Origin: Bacteroidota bacterium
GTDB lineage: Bacteria > Bacteroidota > Bacteroidia > Palsa-965
NCBI GenBank assembly: GCA_006218065.1
Contig: VBWE01000011.1
Location: 86,996 to 150,995, forward strand
Length of the DNA stretch: 64,000 nucleotides
Direction: 5' to 3'
Positions 48,725 to 56,413 of the stretch are shown one piece after another (position 1 is the first letter of the stretch; each line of letters opens with the position of its first letter). The position numbers were made by a program, and so were the translations under genes. Below the pieces are notes generated by a model. The model was not told where the DNA came from, did no database searches, and was given only the letters and a program-made list of their open reading frames with translations.

Positions 48725-48792
48725 CATTTTTCAAAAGAAAAAAGGAAGCAAAAATACTTCCTTTTTCGTCGGGGGTGGTCGCAGGGGGACTA
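48725..48792. repeat. Copy C of the tRNA-Pro trailer/terminator repeat (degenerate)
   Basis: This segment matches the sequence downstream of tRNA-Pro: an ATTTTTCAAA-type stretch, an AAAAGGAAG hairpin, then CGTCGGGG and a diverged tRNA-like remainder ending CGCAGGGGGACT. It is the left-most and most degenerate of three copies (the others at 51726 and 56150). It marks the left edge of the AT-rich region. Its hairpin also serves as the terminator of the DUF4249 gene. Confidence 0.65.
48739..48766 (-). terminator. Terminator after the island DUF4249 gene
   Basis: AAAAAGGAAG (48739-48748) and CTTCCTTTTT (48757-48766) form a 10-bp stem with an 8-nt loop; the T-run continues on the minus strand. 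It ends the transcript of the DUF4249 gene, about 100 nt after its stop codon. Confidence 0.75.
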
Positions 48793-51725: not shown

Positions 51726-51844
51726 TAGGGGTAGCAGGTCCAATCCCGATGGCTATCGGGACAAGACGAACCCACGACCCTCTTATCGATTTTTCAAACA
51801 AAAAGGGAAGCATTCCTGCTTCCTTTTCCGTCGGGGTAGCGGGA
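51726..51844. repeat. Copy A of the tRNA-Pro half/terminator repeat
   Basis: From left to right: a tRNA-Pro 3' half (GGGGTAGC...CGAACCCACGACCC) interrupted at its T-loop by a 28-nt imperfect palindrome centred on TCCCGATGGCTATCGGGA (51744-51761); a TTTTTCAAAC stretch; a GGAAGCA hairpin; and ttccgtcggggtagcggga (51826-51844), identical to 56252-56270, which are the trailer and first tRNA 3'-end nucleotides of the real tRNA-Pro. The match stops inside the tRNA. This is the pattern of an attachment-site duplication. Confidence 0.8.
51800..51826 (-). terminator. Terminator after the esterase-like gene
   Basis: GGGAAGCA and TGCTTCCT form an 8-bp stem (one G-T pair) with a 4-nt loop, followed on the minus strand by a T-run and GTTTGAAAAAT. 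It is nearly identical to the tRNA-Pro terminator at 56224 and is part of repeat A. Confidence 0.75.
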
Positions 51845-51947
51845 TATTACTGTTCGCTCCAGTATATTGTTAATCAAGCTTTCTAAAGAATAAAAAAACG
51901 ATATAATAACCGAATCAGTCCCCATTATTATACATGCTATCGCCTGA

Positions 51948-53390
51948 TTATTGTTTTATTATTTTGTGATATATTGATTTATGGTCATTCTCGAGCACGA
52001 AAAGATAAACACCGGCCGGCAAAAAAGAAAAATTAATTGAGGTACTTTCCGGTACATTTTTTGAAAATACGAGTTGCCCGGCCAAATCAAAACACGTTAC
52101 CTTATATAGCAGGTTATCATGTACAACAATATTTATGTTATTTGAAAATGGGTTAGGAAAAATTGGAATTATATTTTCATCTGGAATTTCTGAAAGACCA
52201 ATTATTGCACTTGAACATCCCGAATTAAAAAATGCTATCGTGGAACTCGCAAAATCTGTATAAAATTCGTGTTCTGCATTTGCGGCCATAATTTCATTTA
52301 CCAATTGCTGCTGGCTATCGAAACTTAAAGACAACACGACCGGATAGTTAGTTGGGTTGGTGGTTATATCATTTACAATAATGGAGGCCTGGTTTGCGTA
52401 ATTTCCGGCTTGTATTTGACCGTTAACGGCTAATTCATTAAAAATGCTTTGTGATAACGAAACGGGAATACCAATGATTCTTGCGAAATATTCCGGGAAT
52501 ATCGGGAATTTATAATGCATATTGTGCGAAGCACAAATGCTATTTCCGCTTAATTCCTGGTAATTCAAGTAACTATTGCTATTGCCTGCAATACCGAGCG
52601 TGGTATCATTTTGTTGCATGCACCAAATGACCGGAACAGATGACATTGTAAATACGGTATCCTGGCCTTCGGCACAATAGATTGCCGCACTTTTATAATT
52701 ATACAGAAAGGAAAGAGTGGAAGAAAATGAGCCACCTGCAGACATACCTACCGAGAAACGTGGTAGTGAGTAATTGAACAATCCGCGATTTATCATCGTA
52801 TCTGTTATTGCTTTTATGTTTACATAATCTACATTGGCTATGGAATCTACGGGATAGGTGAACCACCTGATTTTACCATCACCGTTGAGATCTGTTGATA
52901 CTGTTGTTTCTTCGCATTCGGTAATAATTACACCAAATGTATCGGCAACAGCGGCATTAATAAAATTCCTCATTTCTGTTTTAGTAGTCCAATTGGCTGC
53001 GTTTCCACCTGTACCATGCAGATAATATATTACTCCTTTCATGCTTGTTGGGAAATGCCAATACACATTTTTGAGGTTGGTCATTCCTTGTATTTGTTCG
53101 TAATTAAACGTAAAAGGTGTTACCGTTTGTATGTTGGCTGTAACGGTTATATTTTGTGCGGGCATAACAAGGAAGGTATGCCATTCGTTAGGTAAGCTTA
53201 GGAAAGAGGTATCACCGGACCATGCTTTAAAAAATTTTGTGGAATCATATTCTAGGCTCCAAACATGAACGGTGTCGCCAGCGCTATAAGTCCCGCTACC
53301 ATAACCATTGTTTACGGTAAGGTTAAATGTTTGGGCATTTACTATGGTTAAAATATATGAGCTAAAAATAATCAGAACGGTTATTTTCAT
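51948..53390 (-). CDS. Secreted alpha/beta-hydrolase (esterase-like) with T9SS sorting domain
   Basis: 480 residues. Signal peptide of 20 residues ending VNAQ. Residues 21-90 resemble a bacterial repeat domain (LTVNNGYGSGTYSAGDTVHVWS). The hydrolase fold spans about 105-390: oxyanion-type motif YLHGTGGN and nucleophile elbow GMSAGG with Ser217; the acid and His could lie in the later AEHEFY region. The last about 75 residues are a T9SS sorting domain (IFPNPFSNNINIVV). Probably an exported esterase or depolymerase. It follows the glycosidase-like gene by 5 nt. Confidence 0.8.
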   Translation of the reverse strand: MKITVLIIFSSYILTIVNAQTFNLTVNNGYGSGTYSAGDTVHVWSLEYDSTKFFKAWSGDTSFLSLPNEWHTFLVMPAQNITVTANIQTVTPFTFNYEQIQGMTNLKNVYWHFPTSMKGVIYYLHGTGGNAANWTTKTEMRNFINAAVADTFGVIITECEETTVSTDLNGDGKIRWFTYPVDSIANVDYVNIKAITDTMINRGLFNYSLPRFSVGMSAGGSFSSTLSFLYNYKSAAIYCAEGQDTVFTMSSVPVIWCMQQNDTTLGIAGNSNSYLNYQELSGNSICASHNMHYKFPIFPEYFARIIGIPVSLSQSIFNELAVNGQIQAGNYANQASIIVNDITTNPTNYPVVLSLSFDSQQQLVNEIMAANAEHEFYTDFASSTIAFFNSGCSSAIIGLSEIPDENIIPIFPNPFSNNINIVVHDNLLYKVTCFDLAGQLVFSKNVPESTSINFSFLPAGVYLFVLENDHKSIYHKIIKQ

Positions 53391-53395
53391 AATGA

Positions 53396-54940
53396 TTAGT
53401 TTTTAATGATTTTTTGGGTGGATGTGCCATTGGAATTGGTTGTTTTTAAAAAATAGATGCCGTTTGGAAACTCCTGACAATTAATCACAGCTTTGTCACG
53501 CACCTTTTTTTGAGATATGATTTCTCTTCCGAGGTTATCATAAATTGAAACATCAAAGTGCTGGCCTGGTAATTGAATGGTTAAGGATTCTTGCACAGGG
53601 TTCGGGAAAACAATCCATTGGCTTTCTTCTTTGTTCAAATTACTCAAACCAACAGTGGTAGAAGCACTTACAATATCAGCATACACAACTGCATTTGTAT
53701 CCAATGGCAAAGTAGCCAGAACAATTGAAGGAGTATTATTTGCATACGTGTATTGTCCTAAATAAATGGGCTGAACCAATTGGTTAAATTCTGTATTGGG
53801 AATTTTGTAGAGCTTTATTTTTACGCTGTCTGATGAAGGAAAGCCCGGTAATGAGTTTAAGTTATTGAGGGTTATATTAACGGATGTTGGTGTAAGGAAT
53901 GTGGTATTATGATAGTAACCTATCATCATTCTTACAGTGTTTGGATTAGATTTTAAATTGCCCGTGATGGAAAAAACGCGTGAATTGGATGCACTGGTTA
54001 AGTAACGGATGCTATCTAACTCGGAATACCTTTTAAAAGTCCAATAAACCGCACGTTTAAGGTTTGTTGTCGGGGTTAATATGCCATTAAGTGTATTGTT
54101 AAAGCACGTTTCTGTACCTGAGCTATCATTTGCGTTCCAACAGGCTTTGCATGCTCCATTAGCTTTACCTTTTTCGAGATAATAAAAATGTGCGAGATTA
54201 AATGCAGGCTTATACTGCCCGGTTTCGTTTACGATTTCATTTATCACGATTTTTTTTGTTTGTAAGGGTGCATAAGCTGGGTTATTAATAAAATTGGTTC
54301 TGCACCACAATAGCGCATCGTCAAAATATGGCATAATGGAATCGTTATAGAACCAATGGAATGAGAGTATATCTAATCGAACATTATTTGCTAAACAGTA
54401 ATCGCAAAAAGACCGGATGTAAGTAGTGTCTGCATTCACAATTGAAGGACCACATATTTGAACAGATGTACCGAGATTGAATCTGATACGATCATGCGCC
54501 ATTTTGAAGGTTTGAAAGAATTGCATTTGTGTGCCTGACCAATATGTACCGTTAGGTTCATTCCAGATGTCATAAATCATAGGAAGGGTTGCTGTCGATG
54601 CACAAAGGTTATCTACGAAAGTTTTATATCCGGCAGTATCACTGTATGGAGGAGTCCATCCCGGAGGATATCCATACAGATCACTTACAGCGATCATATA
54701 TTTTGCTCCAATTGTTGTGGTGGCCCTGTTGTAAATGGTAGTTGTAAGACCACCGGCACGCCAGTATCCGGGGGCCAATGGCACAATAAGGCTGTCGTGT
54801 GGATTGGTAGCATCCATGGCATGTAGAAAGCCAATCATATTAGATGCTGTATCAGTATTTGAAAAATCAACTGATAGCGTTTGAGATTTTGCAGTGTTCA
54901 AAAACAGTACTGCAAGAAAAAGTGCGGTTTTATTTTTCAT
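53396..54940 (-). CDS. Secreted GH39-like glycosidase with T9SS sorting domain
   Basis: 514 residues from the ATG giving MKNKTALFLAVLFLNTAKSQ; an earlier start inside the upstream gene is unlikely. The catalytic barrel (about 25-330) has a clan GH-A signature: acid/base Glu128 in YDIWNEPNGTYW and a candidate nucleophile Glu235 in KKIVINEIVNE, a spacing and context like GH39 xylosidases. A beta-sandwich (about 340-430) and a T9SS sorting domain with VFPNPVQESLTIQL follow. A role in polysaccharide breakdown with the adjacent esterase-like protein is likely. Substrate unknown. Confidence 0.75.
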   Translation of the reverse strand: MKNKTALFLAVLFLNTAKSQTLSVDFSNTDTASNMIGFLHAMDATNPHDSLIVPLAPGYWRAGGLTTTIYNRATTTIGAKYMIAVSDLYGYPPGWTPPYSDTAGYKTFVDNLCASTATLPMIYDIWNEPNGTYWSGTQMQFFQTFKMAHDRIRFNLGTSVQICGPSIVNADTTYIRSFCDYCLANNVRLDILSFHWFYNDSIMPYFDDALLWCRTNFINNPAYAPLQTKKIVINEIVNETGQYKPAFNLAHFYYLEKGKANGACKACWNANDSSGTETCFNNTLNGILTPTTNLKRAVYWTFKRYSELDSIRYLTSASNSRVFSITGNLKSNPNTVRMMIGYYHNTTFLTPTSVNITLNNLNSLPGFPSSDSVKIKLYKIPNTEFNQLVQPIYLGQYTYANNTPSIVLATLPLDTNAVVYADIVSASTTVGLSNLNKEESQWIVFPNPVQESLTIQLPGQHFDVSIYDNLGREIISQKKVRDKAVINCQEFPNGIYFLKTTNSNGTSTQKIIKN

Positions 54941-55532
54941 GATTATTTGTTTTAAAATGGGGGATAAGAATAAAAATTGCAAGAAATAATATAGCGAATA
55001 AGGCAGTAACTATCATAAATAACCATGCAATTGGCCAGTTCAGATACCATCCTGCAAATGCATGAAAAGCTGCGAATAGACCCATAAAACCGGTAATGCA
55101 CTTTGTTTTGTTGGCATATTCGGTAAGCCAGGAGAGTAAAAGAAGTGGTAAATAAATATAGCCGAAGGACGCTGCACCAATAACCTGTAATACCCTTCTA
55201 CCAGGTAATAAGTTAATACGGAGATAAATTCCAACAATAAAAATCACGATCGATACCAACCCAAAAACGATAAAAAAAGTTTTATTTAAAAATTTGGGGT
55301 GTGCATAGAAGCTTTCTTTATTGCGTGAAATGTTTAATAGGTCTTTCCGGTTGAACTTTTTTAATGCAATTGTAAATGCCATGTAAAAATCGGGTTCTGA
55401 ATATAGTTCTGCTTCGGTAAGGATGGATAAATGATCTGTCAATTCAGCTAACACGAGCGTATCTTCAACACCCTGTTTTTGCAAATTTTCCTGGATGAAA
55501 TCAATTTCTATATCGGTAAGTTTCCGGCTCAT
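54930..55532 (-). CDS. Membrane protein encoded with a PadR regulator
   Basis: 200 residues. Soluble N-terminus of about 80 residues (DIEIDFIQENLQKQGVEDTLVLAELTDHLSILTEAEL), resembling the small helical domain often found in proteins encoded next to PadR regulators, then four transmembrane helices (about 85-105, 118-135, 143-162, 168-190). Its start overlaps the padR stop by 4 nt and its end overlaps the glycosidase gene by 11 nt. It may sense a membrane state or be the regulator's partner; no firm function. Confidence 0.75.
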   Translation of the reverse strand: MSRKLTDIEIDFIQENLQKQGVEDTLVLAELTDHLSILTEAELYSEPDFYMAFTIALKKFNRKDLLNISRNKESFYAHPKFLNKTFFIVFGLVSIVIFIVGIYLRINLLPGRRVLQVIGAASFGYIYLPLLLLSWLTEYANKTKCITGFMGLFAAFHAFAGWYLNWPIAWLFMIVTALFAILFLAIFILIPHFKTNNHEK

Positions 55533-55867
55533 GCGAGGGTGATTTTTAATTCCATAATCTGACCTAAGGATTTCATGAACTCGTGGAGTTCTTTAATTTT
55601 ATCTTTTGCAATGGCTTTACCTTCTTTGGTTAGTTTGTAATACTTTCTTACTCTTTTTCCAATGGTTACTATCTCAATGGAAAGCAAACCGGTTGCTTCC
55701 AGTTTATGAAGCGATGGATACAATGCCCCTTCGCTGATTTCAATTTTATCCCCAGTAAGCTCTTTTACACGATGGGTTATTTCATAACCGTACATGCGTT
55801 CATTTTCTGAGAGTAATTTCAGAATAATGATTTCTATCGTACCCTTTAGTAGTTCTTTTGAATACAT
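55529..55867 (-). CDS. PadR-family transcriptional regulator
   Basis: 112 residues, the short PadR form. The winged helix is typical: MYSKELLKGTIEIIILKLLSENERMYGYEITHRVKELTGDKIEISEGALYPSLHKLEATGLLSIE, then the wing GKRVRKYYKLTKEGKAIAKDK and a dimerisation helix. First gene of the AT-rich group of four, so it probably controls that group, including itself. A palindrome about 55 nt upstream is a candidate operator. Confidence 0.93.
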   Translation of the reverse strand: MYSKELLKGTIEIIILKLLSENERMYGYEITHRVKELTGDKIEISEGALYPSLHKLEATGLLSIEIVTIGKRVRKYYKLTKEGKAIAKDKIKELHEFMKSLGQIMELKITLA

Positions 55868-55920
55868 AATCGTTCATTTGATTCTGCAAAGTACAAATGG
55901 TTTAATTGCATTTAATATAA

Positions 55921-55941
55921 ATACATTGTATAACGATGTAT
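55921..55941. promoter_or_regulatory. Candidate PadR operator
   Basis: ATACAT (55921-55926) and ATGTAT (55936-55941) form an inverted repeat with a 9-nt spacer, similar to the ATGT/ACAT dyads bound by PadR proteins. It lies 54 nt before the padR start codon. A TACTTTG near 55890 may be the promoter box. Binding is inferred. Confidence 0.4.
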
Positions 55942-56084
55942 TTTATCTTAATAATCTTATAATCAATAAGTTACATTTTAAAACATATTTTTTGACCTGG
56001 GCCATTGGCACCTTATCCTTCCCTTATTCAGTCCCTGAATTAGTCCCGCTGAAGATGGATTTCTTTGATTTATTAGAGAACATT

Positions 56085-56121
56085 AAAAACAAAAAACCAG
56101 TAAACTCCTCTGGTTTACTGG
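56085..56121. terminator. Terminator-like palindrome left of the tRNA-Pro copies
   Basis: CCAGTAAAC (56097-56105) and GTTTACTGG (56113-56121) form a perfect 9-bp stem with a 7-nt loop; the minus strand continues with T-rich sequence (TTTTTTG, TTTTT) and the plus strand with TTTTG. It could stop transcription from either side at the island edge. Confidence 0.55.
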
Positions 56122-56149
56122 TTTTGATTCGTGTTTGATTAACACTTTG

Positions 56150-56204
56150 TCGGGGTAGCGGGTCCCGTCCCGATAGCCATCGGAACGGGACGAACCCACG
56201 ACCC
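56150..56204 (-). repeat. tRNA-Pro 3'-half remnant with an inserted palindrome (copy B)
   Basis: On the minus strand the 3' half of tRNA-Pro (GGGTCGTGGGTTCG ... CCCGCTACCCCGA) is present, but the AGT of the T-loop is replaced by a 28-nt hairpin of 12-bp arms and 4-nt loop (56163-56190, core CCGAT-nnnn-ATCGG, one mismatch). No 5' half is attached, so it is not a functional tRNA. It lies just beyond the terminator of the intact tRNA. Confidence 0.85.
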
Positions 56205-56223
56205 GGTTTCCATTTTTTCAAAC

Positions 56224-56250
56224 AAAAAAAGGAAGCATTGCTGCTTCCTT
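56224..56250 (-). terminator. Terminator of tRNA-Pro
   Basis: AAGGAAGCA (56229-56237) and TGCTTCCTT (56242-56250) form a 9-bp stem with a TTGC loop, followed on the minus strand by seven T. It begins 6 nt after the tRNA 3' end. Confidence 0.85.
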
Positions 56251-56256
56251 ATTCCG

Positions 56257-56330
56257 TCGGGGTAGCGGGACTCGAACCCACGACCCTCAGCACCCCATGC
56301 TGATGCGCTAGCCAACTGCGCTACACCCCG
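56257..56330 (-). tRNA. tRNA-Pro (anticodon GGG)
   Basis: 74 nt without encoded CCA. Acceptor stem CGGGGTG/TACCCCG (7 bp with a terminal G-T), D arm GCGC-loop-GCGC, anticodon stem TCAGC/GCTGA with loop ATGGGGT and anticodon GGG, variable loop GGGTC, T arm GTGGG-TTCGAGT-CCCGC, discriminator A. The C1-G72 pair, A73 and G35-G36 match tRNA-Pro identity elements. It is flanked on both sides by half-tRNA remnants and is a likely integration target. Confidence 0.96.
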
Positions 56331-56366
56331 ATTTTACTTTCCGAAGAAAGCTGACTGAATTCAGTT

Positions 56367-56413
56367 CTGATGTGCTGGCCATCCCGATTGCTATCGGGAG
56401 CGCTGCACCCCGA
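56367..56413 (-). repeat. tRNA-Pro 5'-half remnant with an inserted palindrome
   Basis: On the minus strand TCGGGGTGCAGCGC ... TGGCCAGCACATCAG matches the 5' half of the adjacent tRNA-Pro with four substitutions. The AGT of the D-loop is replaced by an 18-nt perfect hairpin (56382-56399, arms TCCCGAT/ATCGGGA). It precedes the intact tRNA and breaks off in the anticodon stem, the point where the 3'-half remnant at 56204 begins. Confidence 0.82.

Follow-up and report, generated by a model that had tools for sequence, protein, structure and literature searches.

A dispersed 18-base palindrome of Bacteroidia, probably mobile, that appears to take the place of its target

The window, a stretch of 64,000 nucleotides from contig VBWE01000011.1 of a Bacteroidota bacterium, contains an intact tRNA-Pro(GGG) gene (56256..56330, minus strand; ARAGORN and Rfam), the sole intact tRNA found, and beside it broken copies of the same gene whose loops hold an 18-base palindrome, TCCCGATnGCnATCGGGA (hereafter P). 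This locus raises the question of how one palindrome came to stand in the loops of tRNA remnants. A pattern search of the window gave six two-strand matches, corresponding to three places, whereas shuffles led to an expectation of 0.16 and none of them reached six. The three palindromes listed by the initial annotation are thus all present, at 51744, 56168 and 56382. The first (TCCCGATGGCTATCGGGA, 51744..51761, no strand assigned) lies within a 28-nt insert (51739-51766) in a tRNA-Pro 3′ half (51728..51780, minus strand), where by-eye alignment to the intact tRNA showed that the insert replaces the T-loop AGT (ACT on the plus strand). The second lies in a 28-nt insert (56163..56190, no strand assigned) that likewise replaces the T-loop AGT of a 3′ half (56151..56204, minus strand), and both inserts stand exactly at the ACT of the intact gene. 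The third (TCCCGATTGCTATCGGGA, 56382..56399, no strand assigned) stands where the intact tRNA has AGT in the D-loop, in a tRNA-Pro 5′ half (56362..56412, minus strand; by-eye alignment, 80.6% over 31 nt to the intact tRNA). The 12-nt arms described earlier for two of the palindromes are found, with one mismatch, in the insert at 56163-56190, which may be parsed as P flanked by an outer TCCCG and CGGGA; the insert at 51739-51766 has several outer mismatches. Folded as single-stranded RNA, the hairpin in the 56151-56204 half caps the T-stem (−35.1 kcal/mol, z −3.9).

The two 3′ halves form a direct repeat with a spacing of 4424 bp and 82% identity over 77 nt, running towards a common terminator-like hairpin. 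They therefore share one insertion, and the number of independent P events at this locus is two, not the three that had been counted, although the exact replacement of AGT in the T- and D-loops stands. The terminator-like hairpin that follows the intact gene (56229..56251, minus strand) is repeated at 51.8 kb, where a copy of the tRNA-Pro 3′ terminal fragment with this hairpin (51790..51844, minus strand; repeat families D4 and D6) has been duplicated from beside the intact gene. A third, decayed copy of the terminator and the tRNA-Pro 3′ end (48727..48774, minus strand) is without P. Six tRNA-Pro loci of the same family were inspected; the gene was clear in four, none of which has half copies or P, suggesting that the halves are derived in the lineage of the window. 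The other two were a more diverged locus near a contig end and one illegible with the search pattern. Plasmid sequences searched with the tRNA region yielded, among the 20 matches listed, only short ones over the intact tRNA, about one quarter of the query. In all, the tRNA-Pro 3′ end and its terminator occur three times in the window (48727-48774, 51790-51844 and 56215-56330), at spacings of about 3.0 and 4.4 kb, a layout that resembles the successive addition of islands downstream of the tRNA gene.

The genome of the window carries 36 exact copies of TCCCGATNGCNATCGGGA, against 0 for the reversed-pattern control, and 47 hairpins of the form TCCCGA-N3-9-TCGGGA, against none for the reversed pattern. 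The exact P family was found in 15 of 59 relatives, a number that includes the window's own genome listing. Among 392 genomes sampled across the phylum, 30 contain P with the AGCT core, and all 30 belong to the class of the window, with 0 in other classes; the class name Bacteroidia follows the organism titles in the collection of named genomes. The presence of P is patchy inside one family and one genus; in that genus, copy numbers range from zero to 34 per genome. A further 37 P stretches came from viral contigs. Most P copies are intergenic and outside tRNA sequence, so the tRNA-only context of the initial annotation, which had itself named scattered copies as counter-evidence, had to be given up, while its insertion rule is still consistent with the data. 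Part of the spread is duplication of larger repeats, namely tandem arrays and, for instance, gtttaa-P-tcctcc, which has several copies in the window's own genome. The corresponding repeat family gtttaa-P-tcctyc is constant on both sides of P (L007, L010, L016, L018-L020 and L022, all in the window's genome), and in it P rides in a larger element. A search of the open literature retrieved no paper containing the 18-mer or the shorter and variant forms tried, and word searches retrieved no title or abstract opening about such an element.

The fetched DNA contained 392 P sites, of which 243 were distinct in their flanks; 37 of the 243 had an empty counterpart, these being paralogues or related repeats rather than orthologous sites of sister strains, and 206 had none. 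The results showed that filled sites lack bases that are present in their empty counterparts, which supports replacement of sequence by P over plain insertion. The replaced length was 3 nt in 21 of the 37 sites and differed from 3 nt in the other 16 (4 nt in seven, 5 in three, 6 in two, 1 in two, 7 in one and 8 in one). The three-base replacements were RNY (purine-N-pyrimidine) in 19 of 21 cases (p 4e-10), comprising the classes AAT, AAC, ACT, GAC, AGC and GCC, with ATA and CTC as the exceptions; AGT, earlier proposed as the target, is thus a special case of a wider rule. A clean pair outside tRNA comes from REP-like hairpins of the window's genome, with CTTCG-ACT-GCCGCTCAG empty and CTTCG-P-GCCGCTCAG filled. 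No duplicated triplet was found beside P in the empty/filled pairs, and a search for a relative with an empty site of a phage gene carrying P returned the query alone.

The sequence around P is biased at positions +1 to +4 (p 1.6e-20 to 5.5e-5): +1 is poor in A (7%), +2 is rich in G and +3 is poor in T (10% versus 30%). The flank logo was symmetrised, since P is symmetrical, and the very low values in it imply that both sides are constrained. In a thermodynamic test, a strong hairpin encloses 46 of 181 P sites (25%), compared with 11% for exchanged flanks (p 1e-4) and 11% for nearby positions (p 0.007), and a test based on contiguous stems gave a modest excess, weaker than the thermodynamic one. 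Hairpin tips are preferred by P and not required. About three-quarters of the sites are not strongly enclosed, and the view that every P copy occupies a hairpin loop was abandoned. Four cases of the nested TCCCG-P-CGGGA arrangement were found, one of them the copy at 56163 in the window. Within P itself, stem positions 1, 2 and 7 change mostly in pairs across 332 hairpins (position 1, TA 318, CG 11, other 3; position 2, CG 323, TA 4, other 5; position 7, TA 315, CG 9, AT 2, other 6), which means that the folded form of P matters.

The repeated exact placement in tRNA loops claimed for the window recurs in many other Bacteroidota, in D-, T- and anticodon arms of tRNA genes or their remnants, through an exchange of this kind. 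The T-loop form GGTTCG followed by P, a search that fixes the left side by design, occurs on 44 contigs in the collection of named genomes, of which 43 are titled as Bacteroidota or its subgroups and one as an Oceanospirillaceae MAG; hosts include Pedobacter, Mucilaginibacter, Roseivirga, Pseudochryseolinea and Chitinophaga. These contigs hold 51 copies, 50 with enough flank, and the T-stem is kept in 43 of the 50, the other seven not being T-arms. In 35 of the 43, at least four of five positions pair flush with P, and eight more do so if P replaced 4 or 5 bases, figures to be read against a high mixed-pair control in which 46% reach four, as T-stems resemble each other. Among 27 tRNA-derived sites in unbiased contexts, tallied by eye, P lies in the T-loop in 11, the D-loop in 10, the anticodon arm in three and the variable arm in one, with one outside and one unclear; the p value for 24/27 is rough because of the anticodon cases, which are at the loop edge. 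Three loci (L121, L132 and L148) have P-type hairpins in the D and T loops of one tRNA, and another (L124) holds an apparently whole tRNA-Val(CAC) in which the T-loop alone is exchanged. In the window's genome, a tRNA array on contig 9 includes three otherwise whole-looking tRNAs with P in the T-loop; ARAGORN did not call the P-bearing tRNAs of this array. The array (G000:C9:46321-48647, L353) is dense, with about two dozen tRNA genes, and looks redundant or mobile. Variants of the form TCCCGAC-N4-GTCGGGA occur in the same genome in the D-arm of a tRNA-Ala and in place of the anticodon arm of a tRNA-Val. In Mucilaginibacter hurinus (L119, 7058-7550), at least five tandem units, each a 3′ tRNA half with P and a terminator, follow a tRNA-Leu gene.

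P recurs across the genome and the class, stands in the place of a short stretch that is most often a triplet, is enriched in loops and retains its base pairing. We consider it probable, at roughly two in three (about 0.68), that P is a mobile palindrome, non-coding and dispersed through the class Bacteroidia, that replaces its target. Its working form would be a 7-bp hairpin, TCCCGAT/ATCGGGA, with a loop that is usually AGCT. On entering a new site, P would displace a short run of bases, in most cases precisely one RNY triplet, with both flanks constrained and the bases at hairpin tips favoured as targets; tRNA genes and their remnants would be targeted in the D-, T- and anticodon arms, and the net gain of 15 bp would keep reading frames open. 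In the window, P would have entered the T-loop of a tRNA-Pro 3′ half, which was later duplicated, and a separate copy would have entered the D-loop of the 5′ half. We infer that new copies of P are made from existing ones as DNA, with a putative trans-acting enzyme working on hairpins or cruciforms.

An unlikely alternative is that P is a REP-type element whose mobility depends on a genome-encoded REP-associated Y1 transposase (RAYT), although several observations agree with it. The window's genome encodes two RAYTs, scoring 105.9 bits, which exceeds the NCBIfam cut-off, and 63 bits, which falls short of it; Y1 transposases (PF01797) are more numerous in 15 P-rich than in 15 P-free genomes (4.8 versus 2.3, p 0.006), a comparison of manually chosen genomes that is confounded by size, the P-rich ones also being larger (p 0.02). 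CG adjoins P on either side, reading CGTC, at 41 of 181 sites compared with 8% nearby, and other REPs lie inside palindromes, according to a passage of PMC3733652. However, the link of P to RAYTs or Y1 transposases proved weak or absent, and RAYT presence does not track P. A RAYT above the cut-off was counted by hand in nine of 15 P-rich and nine of 15 P-free genomes, and two genomes with 46 and 30 P copies (G018 and G080) have none above it. The RAYT that the initial annotation had suggested looking for is thus there, but without the expected relation to P. The DNA retrieved around eight scanned Y1 loci, and around the RAYT locus L397, contained no P, and GTAG occurs within 8 nt of P at no more than 14 of 181 sites. 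Passages of PMC8266576 describe TnpA_REP as cutting REPs in single-stranded form at CT, possibly guided by GTAG; cleavage at CT predicts no three-base loss, and a known single-strand scheme would not account for that loss together with the two-flank bias. Downstream of the RAYT gene of the window's genome, four tandem repeats with a spacing of 29 bp were observed (L397, 2078-2222).

It is also conceivable, and in our judgement rather improbable, that P is a selected binding site or structural signal, such as a nucleoid-protein site or part of a terminator, that has arisen many times. The occurrence of one 18-mer in many families, the paired changes in the stem and the several P copies in terminator-like hairpins would fit this. 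However, selection acting on point mutations would hardly produce an exact three-base exchange in dead tRNA halves, in D- and T-loops and in coding DNA, and P is patchy inside one family and one genus. The second idea of the initial annotation, that template switching at AGT lengthened a hairpin in each remnant, might draw on the extended arms at 56163-56190 and the four nested cases, but it is contradicted by the presence of the identical 18-mer at unrelated sites and in unrelated genomes, not copied from local arms, and is very improbable; local hairpin growth could account for the outer arms only. An assembly or adapter artefact has a negligible chance of being the explanation: one contig of the window's genome begins exactly at P (C16:1-18), which indicates that P repeats can break assemblies, but P occurs in isolates and in independent assemblies from many groups, with diverged tandem copies.

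The preferred reading, a mobile palindrome that replaces its target, places P near several known systems. Like the REPs and REPINs associated with RAYT (TnpA_REP), P forms short, mostly intergenic, repeated hairpins, and passages of PMC3733652 describe REP families within other palindromes and in frame in genes, as for P. Unlike them, P has no constant GTAG or CGTC tag and no link to RAYT presence, and it replaces about 3 nt and is nearly one sequence across a class; RAYT-linked REPs measure 20-40 nt, compared with 18 nt for P with its 36 exact copies mostly outside genes. Rickettsia palindromic elements (RPEs) are longer than P, being long palindromes that encode tens of residues, whereas P adds a net 15 bp; to our knowledge, RPEs show no habit of replacing a triplet or entering tRNA loops. 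RPEs resemble P as palindromes in frame inside genes, according to part of PMC3733652. The GC clusters of yeast mitochondria and the hairpin elements of sponge mitochondria are, in the passages of PMC4478555 and PMC2800124, likewise tiny, geneless and probably mobile, with mergers or tandem insertion; the GC clusters are described there as flanked by AG or ACT repeats that look like target duplications, whereas P loses its target and is bacterial. MITEs share with P the nature of non-autonomous inverted repeats. MITEs duplicate their target site, whereas the empty counterparts of P hold bases, most often 3 nt, that are absent from the filled site. MITEs measure 70-300 bp, as stated in a passage of PMC3733652, a size far from the 18 nt of P.

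We place P close to REPs and RPEs, as a variation on them, and consider that it may form a separate kind. That P represents an undescribed class of bacterial mobile DNA, a tagless and geneless 18-nt hairpin that copies itself and in doing so swaps the three-base RNY core of a two-sided target, prefers hairpin tips and is served by a putative Bacteroidia-wide enzyme, is a tentative proposal to which we give somewhat less than an even chance. If right, P would be close to the smallest mobile DNA unit so far known from bacteria, its exchange would neither duplicate nor simply split the target, and there would be an explanation for the unusual hairpins that Bacteroidia carry in tRNA remnants, in terminators and in repeats. 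The P-bearing tRNA loops would serve as ready before/after pairs in a hunt for the enzyme.

A few P copies lie in frame within genes, namely a P-type ATPase (L249), the linkers of sorting domains and a lipoprotein signal peptide, these names being a reading of the translations, and the net gain per insertion is 15 bp. Alignment of the P-type ATPase showed that P stands in a variable stretch where the exact replaced triplet is unreadable. TCCCGA-type hairpins were also observed at G000:C38:113529-113544 and 113957-113975 (L346), within what we take to be variable helices of a 23S rRNA gene, and possibly reflect the same process in rRNA.
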